Part shown: positions 31,239 through 45,962 of the stretch, piece by piece
Numbering within the stretch: the first letter of the stretch is position 1
Layout of the letters: each line of letters begins with the position of its first letter
NCBI RefSeq assembly: GCF_030623445.1
Contig: NZ_CP130613.1
Span: forward strand, 2,976,001-3,040,000
Source: Pseudogemmatithrix spongiicola
Lineage (GTDB): Bacteria; Gemmatimonadota; Gemmatimonadetes; Gemmatimonadales; Gemmatimonadaceae
Length of the DNA: 64,000 nt
Direction: 5' to 3'
Translations under genes and position numbers: made by a program
Notes under the pieces: model-generated
What the model was told of the DNA's origin: nothing
Seen by the model: the letters and a program-made list of their open reading frames with translations, nothing else
Database searches by the model: none

Positions 31239-31969
31239 CAGTAGCGCTCCAACCGGCGCGTGTCCGGCATCGACGCGCCGAGTTCGCGCAGCGTCGCCTC
31301 GCGCGCACCCAGCGTGGTGAGATAGTACTGGTTCAGCATCGGATCCTGCGGTGCGCGATACAGCGCGGCTCGCGTCAGCGCGGCGATCTCGTCGAGCGCG
31401 GCGAGGCGCGCCTCGTAGGTCTCGCGATTGAGTCCGATGAACCGCGACGTCGTGTCCTGCGACGCGAGGAACGCCGCTGCCGATTGGTACTGTTGCTGCG
31501 CCACGGTCAGCGCCCGCACGGCGTCGTCCGGCGAGCGATAGCTGGCCACCGGCGCCGCCGCGGCGATCGAGGTCGGATCGAAGCCCGGCAGCTCGGGTGC
31601 CGTCATGCGGCCCACGGCCCCACCGCCGACGGTCAACGCGAGACCCGCCGCGATGCGCATCGCCCACACCTGTAGCGTCGGCTTGCGACGGTCCAGCGCG
31701 ATGACACGCGGATCCTCCTGCACGCGCGCGCCAGCGCCGGCGGGCGGCGCATCCACGATCAGCCCGGCCGCGCGCAGCTGCGGACCCAGTTGCGACCAGG
31801 CCGTGAGCGGCTCGTTGGGGACGGGTGCCATCGCCGACATCCGCGCGAGACGACGGTACGCCGCCACCTCGGCCCGGCAATCCCAGCAGCCGGCCAAGTG
31901 CGTCGCTTCGTCGGGGGTCGGCGTCTCGTCCGCAATCGCGGCGAGACGGTCAATCGAGAGGTGTGACAT
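31238..31969 (-). CDS. Anti-sigma factor with zinc-finger motif and membrane helix
   Basis: 243-residue ZAS-type anti-sigma protein. The N-terminal HLAGCWDC gives the H-x3-C-x2-C zinc motif (with an upstream His at 3 in MSHLS). One transmembrane segment (WAMRIAAGLALTVGGGAVGRM) is at about 105-125, and a long helical periplasmic domain follows. It overlaps the sigma-factor gene by 20 nt and presumably holds that sigma at the membrane. Release by proteolysis is expected by family analogy only. Confidence 0.8.
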   Translation of the reverse strand: MSHLSIDRLAAIADETPTPDEATHLAGCWDCRAEVAAYRRLARMSAMAPVPNEPLTAWSQLGPQLRAAGLIVDAPPAGAGARVQEDPRVIALDRRKPTLQVWAMRIAAGLALTVGGGAVGRMTAPELPGFDPTSIAAAAPVASYRSPDDAVRALTVAQQQYQSAAAFLASQDTTSRFIGLNRETYEARLAALDEIAALTRAALYRAPQDPMLNQYYLTTLGAREATLRELGASMPDTRRLERY

Positions 31970-33956: not shown

Positions 33957-34318
33957 GCGACTCCGAAACCCCGACCCCCGCGCCGACCCCCGCGCCGACC
34001 CCCGCGCCAGCACCGAGCGGCAGCATCACCGAAGACCAGGTGAAGCTGGCGCTGCGGCGCGTGAAGGATCCCGAGCTCAATCTCAACATCCTCGATCTCG
34101 GGCTCATCTACGGCATCGCCGTCGAGGGCAACGACGTGAAGATCGATATGTCGCTCACGTCGCCGGGCTGCCCATCGGGGCCGGAGATCATGACCGACGC
34201 CGAGAATCAGCTGAAGGCGATGGAGGGCATCGGCACCGTATCCATGAACCTCGTGTGGTCGCCGCCGTGGACGCCGGATCGCATCGAGCCGCGCGTACGC
34301 GCGTATCTCGGGTTCTAG
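33953..34318 (+). CDS. MIP18/SufT-like metal-sulfur cluster assembly factor
   Basis: 121-residue DUF59 protein involved in Fe-S cluster maturation or delivery. Core motifs are VKDPELNLNILDLGLIYGI and SLTSPGCPSGPEI with the conserved Cys. An N-terminal Thr/Pro/Ala repeat tail (TPAPTPAPTPAPAP) is encoded by tandem 12-nt units and is probably a flexible linker. The GTG start overlaps the hydrolase stop. The last base of its stop is shared with the convergent kinase gene around CTAG. Confidence 0.85.
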   Translation: MSDSETPTPAPTPAPTPAPAPSGSITEDQVKLALRRVKDPELNLNILDLGLIYGIAVEGNDVKIDMSLTSPGCPSGPEIMTDAENQLKAMEGIGTVSMNLVWSPPWTPDRIEPRVRAYLGF

Positions 34319-36942
34319 CGCTGCGAACGTAGTAGCGCGCGCCAGTCAGGAATGGCGATGAGCTGGGTGTCACCCTCGCCTTCCCGCACGGCGAACACCA
34401 TCCGCCCCGCGCGATCGACATCCCAGTTGCCGACGAGCCCTTCCGGCACCGCCACACGGACCGGCGTACCGACCGCGACATTGGCACCCAACGACACCGA
34501 GACCCGGAAGAGACTCGGTATCGTGCGGTCTCGGCCCCCGGCAGCGACGTAGTACACGCTGCGTCCATCGCCCGACCAGCGCGGTGCGAAGCCATATCCC
34601 GACGACAGCTTCCATTGCGCACCGGAACCGACGGCCGGGAACGGTCGGAGATACACCTCGGTGGGTCCACCTTCGTCGCTGGCGTAGACGATCCAGCGTC
34701 CGTCAGGCGAGACCGCCGGCATCAACCCGTTGTAGGCGCCGCGCAGGAAATCGCGCTCGGACCGTTCGCGTCGCGGATCCAGCACCACAATCGCCGAGTG
34801 CCCTCGCATCGCGTTGGCCGGGCTCCCGTCGGCGAAGACCAGCGTCGAGTCGTTGACCCAACTGAAGCCGTGCTGGTCACCCGGTCGCCGCGCGAGGCGG
34901 CGGACGGGCGACGATCCATCGAGCGGTTGCGCGAAGAGATCCTCGGCGTCGCTCGCGGAATCGGTGGCGGTGAAGGCCAACTCACGCCCATCCGGAGACC
35001 ACACGGGGGCATGCGGACCGCCGACCGCGGCAAACCGCGTCAGCGTCTTCGAGGCGAAATCATAGATCTGCGTTTCGCGGAGCGAGCCGCGCGCGGAACC
35101 GCGCGTAAGGGCAAGCCGGGATCCATCCGGTGAGAAGCGAAGGTAGGACACCGTCTGCGGCGGCAGCGGCAGGGTGTCCAAGCGACCGCCGGCTGACTGC
35201 ACCACGATGCGCACCGCAGGGTCCGACCCCACCAGATACACCAGCAGGCCGCGCGCCGTGACGGCGAACGGGCTGATGGCGGAACTGACGGCCATGTCGG
35301 CGGCGATCGGCACCGGCGCGCCCACCACCTTCCGCGCCCCTTGGTCGAACTCTACCGCGAACAGGCCGCCCTGCGGATGGCCGAAGAGCAGGTAGCCGTC
35401 GTCGGTGAGTTCACCTTCACTCGCTTGCGCGAGCACCTGCGTGGTGTCGTCGCGCTCGAGGTCGTAGTACATCAGACGGCTGCCCTGCCGCTCGTCCACG
35501 TAGAACAACCCGCGGCCATCGGGCGTGAAGCGCGGCGCCGAGCCATCCGCAGCGGTCACCAGGCGCCGAACCTCGGCGCCATCGGGCGAGACGACCCACA
35601 GGCCACCGCGTCCCTCGAATGCCAGTTGCCCTTGCCGTCCGTACCGCACCCGGCTTCCATCGAGTGTGTCCGCCGAGAGGACGGCGATCGGTGCCCCGCC
35701 GCGCATCGAGACTTTTCGCAGCGCTCCGCTGGCGGAGTACGCAATCCACGCGCCATCGGGGGAGAACGACGGCGACTCCGCACCATCGGTGCCGGGCAAT
35801 AGGCGATATGCGCGGGATCCCCGCTCGCGTACCGCGATGCCGTCATCCATGGCGATCGCGACCGCCTCGCCGTCTGATGAGACGGTGAAGCGCCGCAGGT
35901 CAGGACCGCGCCCGTCGACTTCCAGCACGAGCGGCAGCGCGAGACCGCTCGCGCCCGCTTCACGATCGGCACCCAGCCACGCGCCACCCGCGAGCCCGAG
36001 CAGGGCCACCGTGACACCGGCCACGAGCGGCCAGCGCGCCGCGCGCATGGACGCTGCGGCTGGCGCTCCGCTGTGCGAGGGCGCGGCGCCAGCGACCGTC
36101 GGTGGGCTCGGCGCGCGCAACGCCTCGCTGAACGACGCAGCCGTCGCGAAGCGATCGGCCGGCAGCTTCGCGAGCGCGCGCAGCACGGCGGCTTCGACCT
36201 GCGGCGGAATCGTATCACGCAATGCCGTGGGTGCGACGGGCTTCTCGGTCAGCACCTTCGCCACGATGCTCTGCACCGACGCGCCAGCGAAGGGCGGCTC
36301 ACCGGTCAGCATCTCGTAGGTCACCGCACCAAGCGCGTAGATGTCGCTGCGCGCATCGATCGTGCGCTCGCCCATCGCCTGTTCGGGACTCATATACTGC
36401 GGCGTCCCCAGCGAGAGCCCGGTCTGCGTCATGCGCGCACCGCCCGCGGTCTGCACCGCCAGCGCAATGCCGAAGTCGGCCACCACAGCGTGCCCGCCCT
36501 GCAGCAGGATGTTCTCAGGCTTGATGTCGCGGTGGATCACGCCTTGCGAGTGCGCATGGGCCAGCGCATCGGCGACTTCGCGCGCCACCAGCAGCGCGTC
36601 CTCGAGCGGCAGCTGCTGCTCGCGCGCGAGTCGGGCGCGCAACGTCTCGCCCGTGACCAGCGGCATCACGTAAAACAGCAGCCCGTCCGCTTCGCCGCTG
36701 TCGAGCAACGGCAAGATGTGCGGATGCTGCAGCTTCGCGGTGGTCTTGATCTCGCTCAAGAACCGATCGCCGCCCAGTGCCGCCCCGAGGTCGGGGTGCA
36801 ACACCTTGATCGCCACCTCACGCTCATGCCGCAGGTCGCGCGCCAACCAAACGGTGGCCATGCCGCCGGCGCCGAGCTCGCGCTCGATCGCGTAGCGCTC
36901 GCGAAGCGCCGCCGTCAGCCGCGCACGCAGGTCAGTCGAGAT
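34315..36942 (-). CDS. Ser/Thr protein kinase with membrane helix and TolB-like propeller
   Basis: About 875-residue Hanks-type kinase: glycine loop ELGAGGMATVW, lysine in VAIKVLHPDL, HRDIKPEN and ADFGIAL, then one membrane helix (PLVAGVTVALLGLAGGAWLG). An extracytoplasmic WD40/TolB-like beta-propeller follows, with repeated FSPDG, FTPDGRG, WSPDGRELAF and SPDGRWIVYAS motifs. The first ATG in frame (36861) would delete the glycine loop. No ATG, GTG or TTG exists upstream before the in-frame stop at 36981. A strong Shine-Dalgarno AAGGAG (36955-36950) sits 7 nt before an in-frame ATC (36942), giving a family-typical start (x)STDLRARL. I therefore place the start at that ATC; a sequence error is the alternative. 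Confidence 0.8.
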   Translation of the reverse strand: MSTDLRARLTAALRERYAIERELGAGGMATVWLARDLRHEREVAIKVLHPDLGAALGGDRFLSEIKTTAKLQHPHILPLLDSGEADGLLFYVMPLVTGETLRARLAREQQLPLEDALLVAREVADALAHAHSQGVIHRDIKPENILLQGGHAVVADFGIALAVQTAGGARMTQTGLSLGTPQYMSPEQAMGERTIDARSDIYALGAVTYEMLTGEPPFAGASVQSIVAKVLTEKPVAPTALRDTIPPQVEAAVLRALAKLPADRFATAASFSEALRAPSPPTVAGAAPSHSGAPAAASMRAARWPLVAGVTVALLGLAGGAWLGADREAGASGLALPLVLEVDGRGPDLRRFTVSSDGEAVAIAMDDGIAVRERGSRAYRLLPGTDGAESPSFSPDGAWIAYSASGALRKVSMRGGAPIAVLSADTLDGSRVRYGRQGQLAFEGRGGLWVVSPDGAEVRRLVTAADGSAPRFTPDGRGLFYVDERQGSRLMYYDLERDDTTQVLAQASEGELTDDGYLLFGHPQGGLFAVEFDQGARKVVGAPVPIAADMAVSSAISPFAVTARGLLVYLVGSDPAVRIVVQSAGGRLDTLPLPPQTVSYLRFSPDGSRLALTRGSARGSLRETQIYDFASKTLTRFAAVGGPHAPVWSPDGRELAFTATDSASDAEDLFAQPLDGSSPVRRLARRPGDQHGFSWVNDSTLVFADGSPANAMRGHSAIVVLDPRRERSERDFLRGAYNGLMPAVSPDGRWIVYASDEGGPTEVYLRPFPAVGSGAQWKLSSGYGFAPRWSGDGRSVYYVAAGGRDRTIPSLFRVSVSLGANVAVGTPVRVAVPEGLVGNWDVDRAGRMVFAVREGEGDTQLIAIPDWRALLRSQR

Positions 36943-38125
36943 ACGGCGACTCCTTCTTCCGCCACGGTTCGAGCGCCTTCACGAAATCGGCGCCCAGCTC
37001 CTCGACCTGCCAACACCGGAACTCCGGAATCTCCAGGATCTGCTCGGCCTTCGCCGGCAGCATGCGCGCCACGGACTCCATGCGCTCGCGCGAGCAGAGC
37101 ACGCCCGGATCCAACTCCAGCCGCGCCGCCGCCGCATCGCGCACGGCCTTCAGGGCGCCGACCTTATGATCGAAATCCGGATCGCGGTCCCAGCGCGCGG
37201 ACTTCGGGAACTTCGGCAGCGCCGCTTCCGGCACCGCGAGGCCGCGGTCGATTGCTTCGATGATCTCCGCATGCGAGCGCTCGAGGATGCCCCGCGGCAT
37301 GCCCTTGATGTTCGCCAACGTCTCCTTGCTCGCCGGGTGCGCCTTCGCCGCCTCGAGCAGCACCTCGTTGCTCACCACGCGGAACGTCGCACGGTCGAGC
37401 TTGAGCGCCGCGCCATCGCGCCACTGCACCAACTCGCGGAACACCGCCAGCTCGCGGCGCGTGAGGTCGCGCGCGCCCTTCACTTTCAGGAACCCGTTCG
37501 CGTCGTCCGCCGGCCAACGCACGCTCTCCAGCCGCTCGAACTCTTCCTTGGCCCAGGCGAGCCGCCCCTTCTTCACGAGTTGCCCATGCAGCTCGTCGCG
37601 CAGGCCGAGCAGGTGGATGGTGTCCTGCGCCGCGTAATCGAGCATGTCGGCCGTCAGCGGGCGCATCGACCAATCCGCGCGCTGGTGCTTCTTGTCGAGC
37701 TTCACGCCGAAGTACTGCTCGAGCAGTGCCGCGAGTCCGAAGGCCTTGATGCCGAGTAGCTGCGCCGCGACGCGCGTGTCGAACACGTTGCGCACGTTCC
37801 AGCCGTAATCCTGGTGCAGCAGCCGCAGGTCGTAGTCGGCGTCGTGGAAGACGATCTCGATCGCCGGGTCCTCGATCATCGCGCCAAGCAGCGCCGGCGA
37901 CTCGATGGGCAGCGGATCGATCACCGCGTGCGCGTTGTCCGTGGACAGCTGCAGCAGGTAGATGCGATCGACGAAGCGATGGAAGCTCGCGCCCTCGGTG
38001 TCGAGCGCGAGGCGACGCGCGCCCTTGGCGGCGGCGAGCCAGGCGCGGACCGCGGCATCGGTGTCGAGGTACTGGGCGCTCGGAGCCTTGGCGCTGCGCG
38101 GGGCGGACGGATTCACAGCCTGCAA
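36932..38125 (-). CDS. rnd: Ribonuclease D
   Basis: 397-residue 3'-5' exoribonuclease for tRNA and stable-RNA maturation. DEDDy catalytic motifs: LDTEGASFHR (Exo I), HDADYDLRLLH (Exo II), DYAAQDTIHL (Exo III with Tyr/Asp). An HRDC domain follows (KGARDLTRRELAVFRELVQW) and a second helical region completes it. The last 11 nt overlap the proposed start of the kinase gene, and its coding sequence carries that gene's Shine-Dalgarno. Confidence 0.9.
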   Translation of the reverse strand: MQAVNPSAPRSAKAPSAQYLDTDAAVRAWLAAAKGARRLALDTEGASFHRFVDRIYLLQLSTDNAHAVIDPLPIESPALLGAMIEDPAIEIVFHDADYDLRLLHQDYGWNVRNVFDTRVAAQLLGIKAFGLAALLEQYFGVKLDKKHQRADWSMRPLTADMLDYAAQDTIHLLGLRDELHGQLVKKGRLAWAKEEFERLESVRWPADDANGFLKVKGARDLTRRELAVFRELVQWRDGAALKLDRATFRVVSNEVLLEAAKAHPASKETLANIKGMPRGILERSHAEIIEAIDRGLAVPEAALPKFPKSARWDRDPDFDHKVGALKAVRDAAAARLELDPGVLCSRERMESVARMLPAKAEQILEIPEFRCWQVEELGADFVKALEPWRKKESPYLD

Positions 38126-45038: not shown

Positions 45039-45962
45039 TTACACGAGGCCCCAGGCCCCGGCGTACACGAAGACGCGATCGCGCGCGCGTCCGGTAATCT
45101 CCTCGGCGAGGCCGAGCTCGACCAATCGCTGCAATGCGGCACCGGCGGCCGGACGCGAGAGCGAGAGCCGGACACTCAGGTCGGGCACGGAAGTCGCGAG
45201 GGACAGGCGCAGGACGGCGAGTGCGTCTCGAGCGGTGAGACCGGCGCGCCCGATGCTTGCCACGTGCGCGTCTTCCGCGGCCTGCGACTCCCAGAGCAGC
45301 TTGAGCTGCAGACGGAGATGCCGGGCGTTGGACGCGAGCGAAGCCAACGCGACGCGCGCGAGTGGCGTGACATCGCCCGCACGCCAAGCGGCCGCGACGT
45401 CGAGACGCAACCTCCGCTCGACGGCGGCGAACGGCAGCAGCCGCAGGCGATCGGTCAGTCCCCCGGCCGTGAGCACGAGTGCGGAGAGGAGATCGGCATG
45501 CGGCGTCTCCGGCATCCACGCGACGATGTGCAGGGCGCGCCAAAGCAACGGGCGCGGCTCGCTCCCGGGCCGCAAGGCCTCGAGCACCGCGACCTGCGCA
45601 TCCGGCGTCATCGAGACGTCCGGCGGGATCGCGAGCGGTGCCCCGCTGCGCGCGCGCCGTTCCCCGTCATCGACCAGCTGCTGCCATCGCTCGAGCGCGC
45701 GATCCATTGCGGCGGCGTGCACCATCTCGACGCGGGATGCCACGAGCGAAGCACAGGCCAGTCGCGTAGCTTGCGCGGTGTCGACGGCGATGTCGCGATT
45801 CGCCGTGTCGCGCACAGCGAGGCCGGCAACCGCGACGGATTGGAGCACGAGGGCGGCGGCGGGCGGTGCAACCGAGACGAGCGCATCAAGGCGCCCCAGC
45901 TCTTCGGCGCACTCTTCGTGCAGCCGTACCGTCGACGGCGTCACCGCAGCGTGTAAAGTCAT
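45039..45962 (-). CDS. Winged-helix protein, C-terminal domain as in Fic proteins
   Basis: 307 residues from ATG 45962. The helical N-terminus includes LHEECAEELGRLDALVSVAP. The last 70 residues form a winged helix: LSLATSVPDLSVRLSLSRPA and LVELGLAEEITGRARDRVFVY, very like the regulatory C-terminus of Fic-family AMP transferases. The Fic catalytic HPFxDGNGR motif is absent, so enzyme activity is not expected. Probably a DNA-binding regulator; a CACAAA/TTTGTG inverted repeat lies just upstream in the shared gap with the divergent ChaN-like gene. Confidence 0.6.
   Translation of the reverse strand: MTLHAAVTPSTVRLHEECAEELGRLDALVSVAPPAAALVLQSVAVAGLAVRDTANRDIAVDTAQATRLACASLVASRVEMVHAAAMDRALERWQQLVDDGERRARSGAPLAIPPDVSMTPDAQVAVLEALRPGSEPRPLLWRALHIVAWMPETPHADLLSALVLTAGGLTDRLRLLPFAAVERRLRLDVAAAWRAGDVTPLARVALASLASNARHLRLQLKLLWESQAAEDAHVASIGRAGLTARDALAVLRLSLATSVPDLSVRLSLSRPAAGAALQRLVELGLAEEITGRARDRVFVYAGAWGLV

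Follow-up and report, generated by a model that had tools for sequence, protein, structure and literature searches.

A conserved Ser/Thr protein kinase gene with a probable AUC start overlapping the end of rnd in Pseudogemmatithrix spongiicola

The Ser/Thr protein kinase gene located directly behind rnd in Pseudogemmatithrix spongiicola is probably translated from an AUC codon (ATC36942), and this initiation is likely to be coupled to the termination of rnd, low in level and possibly sensitive to IF3. An AUC start at this position, as proposed in the first-pass annotation, is supported and is preferred here because it is the best candidate on position, Shine-Dalgarno (SD) spacing, conservation and precedent. 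The kinase gene lacking a canonical start is real, conserved and modestly surprising, with a putative start of a rare but known type and an unusual origin. The window, i.e. the whole 64,000-nucleotide stretch of DNA that was analysed, corresponds to positions 2976001-3040000 of the single-contig 3.26-Mb genome, and the features of the kinase gene and its junction with rnd, in window coordinates, are as follows:

34315..36942, (-): Ser/Thr protein kinase coding sequence, 875 codons counted from ATC36942
36979..36981, (-): in-frame stop TGA closing the kinase frame upstream
36859..36861, (-): first canonical in-frame start (ATG), within the glycine loop
36940..36942, (-): proposed AUC start codon, 22 codons before LGAGG and 7 nt from the SD, kept in G002
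36950..36955, (-): Shine-Dalgarno AAGGAG, lying within the rnd codons K-K-E and complementary to the 16S tail
36928..36930, (-): rival start CTG, separated from the rnd stop by 1 nt and lying 18 codons before LGAGG, lacking a dedicated SD
36932..38125, (-): rnd, RNase D-like (DNA_pol_A_exo1 and HRDC; Pfam PF01612, 5e-41, and PF00570, 2e-25), from its putative start
36932..36942, (-): 11 nt shared by the end of rnd and the beginning of the kinase gene
34315..34318, no strand: palindromic CTAG used by both the kinase (-) and the convergent DUF59-like gene (+) for their stop codons

The kinase matches the Pfam profiles PF00069 (6e-44) and PF07676 (2e-26) and consists of a kinase domain, followed by a hydrophobic segment at approximately residues 305-325 and a PD40/WD40-like beta-propeller C-terminal part. 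The AIK, HRDIKPEN, DFG and SPE motifs are present, and the profile match, together with the glycine loop, the AIK lysine, HRD and DFG, places the protein in the Pkinase family (PF00069). Its relatives in the genome collection belong mostly to the Gemmatimonadota, and more than 30 kinase-domain matches related to it occur in the 3.26-Mb genome itself (G000), including a cluster of several at ~700-717 kb. The 3' end of the gene overlaps the stop of the DUF59-like gene by 4 nt. At the 5' end, the codons after the upstream TGA (36981-36979) read AGG CGC TCG AAC CGT GGC GGA AGA AGG AGT CGC CGT ATC TCG ACT GAC CTG CGT GCG CGG CTG ... GGC GGC ATG. The first-pass annotation had held that the only available ATG (36861) cuts the glycine loop, that no ATG, GTG or TTG precedes it after the in-frame stop at 36981, and that AAGGAG lies 7 nt before the ATC. 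All of this was borne out: ATG 36861 encodes the methionine of LGAGGM, direct reading and a script found no ATG, GTG or TTG in the kinase frame from 36978 down to ATG 36861, and AAGGAG occupies 36955-36950. Elsewhere in the window, a long open frame with coding-like GC3 at 45039-45956 (+) has its first ATG, GTG or TTG only at codon 75; it may represent a further gene whose start is easily misassigned, or just an upstream region that happens to be open.

The AAGGAG element pairs perfectly with the 16S rRNA tail CACCTCCTTAA from the same genome, forming the best duplex in the region (-8.3 kcal/mol) and leaving a spacer of 7 nt to ATC36942. In the local RNA fold the ATC codon is predicted to be unpaired (0.83-0.94), but the SD is partly paired, a mixed structural result of which the first part favours the AUC reading and the second counts against it. 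The anticodon stem of the initiator tRNA is of the usual GGG/CCC type, and IF3 is encoded in the genome. The features of a non-canonical (AUH) start are found at this site: no ATG, GTG or TTG fits the conserved N-terminus, an SD-spaced AUH codon stands at the homologous position, and the arrangement is conserved across species.

The starts of homologues were measured backward from LGxGG in 202 related kinases. A canonical start lies 17-27 codons before this motif in 179 of them, and none is present in that range in the window kinase or its orthologue. Among the homologues with a single candidate start (n=77), 41 begin at 21 codons, ten at 20, seven at 22 and none at 18, the 20-22-codon zone thus holding 58/77. 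ATC36942, CTG36930 and CTG36918 lie 22, 18 and 14 codons before LGAGG, respectively. The ATC falls within the zone, although the modal start is at 21 codons rather than 22, which counts against the AUC. The homologue in L043 begins GTG-AGC-ACC-GAC, aligned exactly to the position of ATC36942. Fifteen typical-class kinases have no canonical start at 17-27 codons, and eight of these carry CTG or ATC at 20-22; with the orthologue pair counted once, this holds for 7/14 lineages, against an expected 14% (p ~0.001). CTG, and no ATG, GTG or TTG, is found at the homologous start in L038 (~2997), L055 (~797), L115 (~1482) and L224 (21, 21, 21 and 22 codons before LGxGG, respectively). The clearest near-cognate cases are L055 and L224, in whose frames the glycine loop is preceded by no canonical codon at all, and L038, where the kinase CTG and the stop codon of a PP2C-like gene together form CTGA. 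Given this enrichment, near-cognate starts seem to recur in this kinase family, the genomes being mostly metagenome assemblies in which single cases may be errors. A second kinase, L220/L299 (G092:C31 ~31643-31660), shows GAAGGA and ATC-TCG at the homologous start (20 codons), its sole canonical alternative being an ATG 24 codons further upstream with no obvious SD.

One of the 16 other genus genomes, from a separate species (G002; L111), contains the same rnd-kinase pair, with 94% protein identity. Comparison of the start codon with that of this close relative, as had been suggested, revealed an identical SD/ATC junction: the two sequences are identical over 36967-36926, show a single difference at 36925, and are then identical for 104 nt (36924-36821). 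A sequencing or assembly error at the junction, and hence the read-level correction to ATG or GTG that had been envisaged, is ruled out by this independent orthologue. The kinase frames are intact in both species (875 and 874 codons), with a dN of 0.035, a dS of 0.32 and a dN/dS of 0.11 (over 874 codons), and the first 40 codons contain no amino-acid changes. The low dN/dS and unchanged N-terminus indicate a maintained protein, glycine loop included, and a pseudogene is ruled out by the former value. RNA-level constraint on the first 44 codons was not significant (3/30 fourfold sites differ versus 109/511, p = 0.17), despite a low-looking dS and the 104-nt mismatch-free run; the DUF59-like neighbour has 10/64 fourfold-site differences.

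The rnd gene is conserved in 17/17 genus genomes, and a kinase behind it is absent from the 15 genomes other than those of the window and G002. Wherever the stretch examined shows it, the convergent DUF59-like gene comes next in the kinase-free genomes; in the window and G002 the kinase occupies the rnd/DUF59-like interval without intergenic DNA. As the 15 other genomes have no kinase after rnd, the gene can be regarded as inserted at the rnd stop. The end of rnd reads TAT CTC GAC TGA, with the stop at 36934-36932, so that the kinase start does lie inside rnd, as initially described, but by 11 nt only. The distances from the rnd stop (-11 nt for the ATC, +1 nt for CTG36930) are both short, as expected for translational coupling, and -11 belongs to the more frequent of the longer overlap classes that support reinitiation (PMC10666635). 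The purine run and TCGCCGTAT ahead of the start are rnd codons (K-K-[DE]-S-P-Y) that kinase-free relatives, L172 for example (AAGAAGGATTCGCCGTATCGC), already possess, so the inserted gene lies behind a purine run that predates it. The letters of the ATC derive from rnd TAT-C. The SD-like run and spacer, being rnd codons partly found in kinase-free relatives, did not evolve for this start.

The main rival to AUC 36942 is CTG36930, an unlikely start that reinitiating ribosomes would have to find with no dedicated SD. It is close enough to the rnd stop for reinitiation and is kept in G002, and CTG is apparently the start in the related kinases L038, L055, L115 and L224, but none of the 77 single-candidate homologue starts is at its distance of 18 codons, AAGGAG is 19 nt away with no nearer SD, and CUG yields ~0.9% of AUG output in E. 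coli (PMC11497404). Nor is a CTG-started parallel to infC known in this genome. Less probable still is that no upstream start is used, with translation beginning at ATG 36861 to give a protein devoid of the glycine loop, or with the gene representing a decaying insertion remnant. ATG 36861 is the first canonical codon, and the kinase occurs at the rnd site in two species only, without a canonical start; against this stand the intact frames, the dN/dS and the unchanged N-terminus noted above, and no homologue starts at the position corresponding to ATG 36861. A Rnd-kinase fusion produced by +1 frameshifting at the rnd end, where GAC TGA C would be read as GAC, skip T, GAC, is very improbable. 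The kinase frame is +1 relative to rnd and the stop is followed by C, like the prfB site. At the prfB frameshift site, an SD-like element lies ~6 nt from the stop. Here, AAGGAG is instead 15 nt from the rnd stop, the site lacks a slippery P-site codon, as GAC cannot re-pair on ACT, and the kinase N-terminus is of normal length relative to homologues, which argues against a fusion.

A parallel to the AUC start of the kinase is found in infC of the same genome, which begins at ATC (AGGAG-CCGTCGT-ATC-CAG-GAA):

G000:C1:1868881-1868895, (-): infC ATC start site (AGGAGCCGTCGTATCCAGGA; L293/L327), invariant across the genus

The sequence GGAG[CT][CT]GTCGT-ATC-CAG-GA is invariant in 13/13 readable genus genomes amid variable surroundings, and five of these 13 infC frames have no canonical alternative start. 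The lineage appears to rely on an SD-7nt-ATC arrangement for this essential gene, the start of which standard gene finders would likely misplace. The start geometry is common to infC and the kinase (AGGAGCCGTCGTATC versus AGGAGTCGCCGTATC), and AGGAGNCGNCGTATC has exactly two occurrences in the 3.26-Mb genome, infC and the kinase, with none for a reversed-pattern control. As this pattern was chosen after both sites had been seen, and as the kinase spacer is made of rnd codons, the spacers probably resemble each other by coincidence. A third type of AGGAGNCGNCGTATC hit, in G006 (L321), is not followed by a long frame and was dismissed as chance.

In E. coli, infC starts at AUU. The infC start is ATC in Streptomyces (PMC5472188) and AUA in S. 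aureus (PMC13009471). The kinase resembles infC, whose site is fully conserved in the genus, in its putative AUH start, the 7-nt SD spacing and expected IF3 discrimination, whereas infC encodes the codon-reading factor (autoregulation); feedback of this kind is absent from the kinase, which overlaps its upstream gene. Outside infC, ATC starts are rare but have precedents, namely an experimentally supported example in Listeria monocytogenes rnhC (PMC13068326) and one upstream ATC start observed in E. coli N-terminomics (PMC13245402). The description of AUC starts as very rare has to be qualified, as they are known in the organism's own infC, Streptomyces infC and Listeria rnhC. The latter shares with the kinase an ATC start outside infC, but is confirmed by experiment where the kinase start is deduced from sequence, and its gene and context are unrelated. 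The sigR gene of Streptomyces, with a GTC start repressed by IF3 (PMC5472188), is likewise a signalling/regulatory gene outside infC whose non-canonical start was missed by annotation, although its codon is GTC rather than ATC and its IF3 control is shown rather than predicted. S. aureus ccpN (AUA) and cvfC1 (AUU) also have conserved rare starts behind a good SD, giving ~10-30% of AUG output; they differ in belonging to Firmicutes, in their extended SDs and in that no upstream-gene overlap is reported in the accessible portion of the source (PMC13009471). Termination-reinitiation pairs (PMC10666635) share the co-directional 11-nt overlap, phase 1 and the lack of intergenic DNA, but the known pairs have NTG starts.

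A membrane-type Ser/Thr kinase gene would have been inserted precisely where rnd ends, in the common ancestor of the two species, having either lost its canonical start or arrived without one. 30S or post-termination ribosomes would engage AAGGAG and initiate at AUC 36942 with fMet, and ribosomes finishing rnd a few nucleotides downstream would probably feed the AUC by termination-reinitiation across the overlap. Kinase output would be low and tied to rnd translation, and the protein dosed in this way would carry the hydrophobic segment and the beta-propeller sensor part. IF3 sensitivity is predicted from the mismatch between the third base of AUC and the initiator anticodon, and the organism's own AUC-started infC is expected to be IF3-sensitive likewise. 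Tentatively, and with some doubt, the kinase and infC may constitute a small IF3-controlled AUC set in the genus, in which the rnd KKESPY codons were co-opted by a startless inserted gene to serve as an infC-like AUC initiation site; the level of kinase might then report on rnd translation as well as on free IF3.

As the start codons accepted by gene finders are usually limited to ATG, GTG and TTG, the kinase would be given a wrong start or lose its glycine loop in annotation. Among 175 related kinases, seven lineages have CTG or ATC at the homologous start, which suggests that starts of the near-cognate kind are under-called in the phylum. The kinase would provide a natural second AUC start beside infC for examining IF3 control, and illustrates how an inserted gene may turn the last codons of the adjacent gene into a place to initiate translation.
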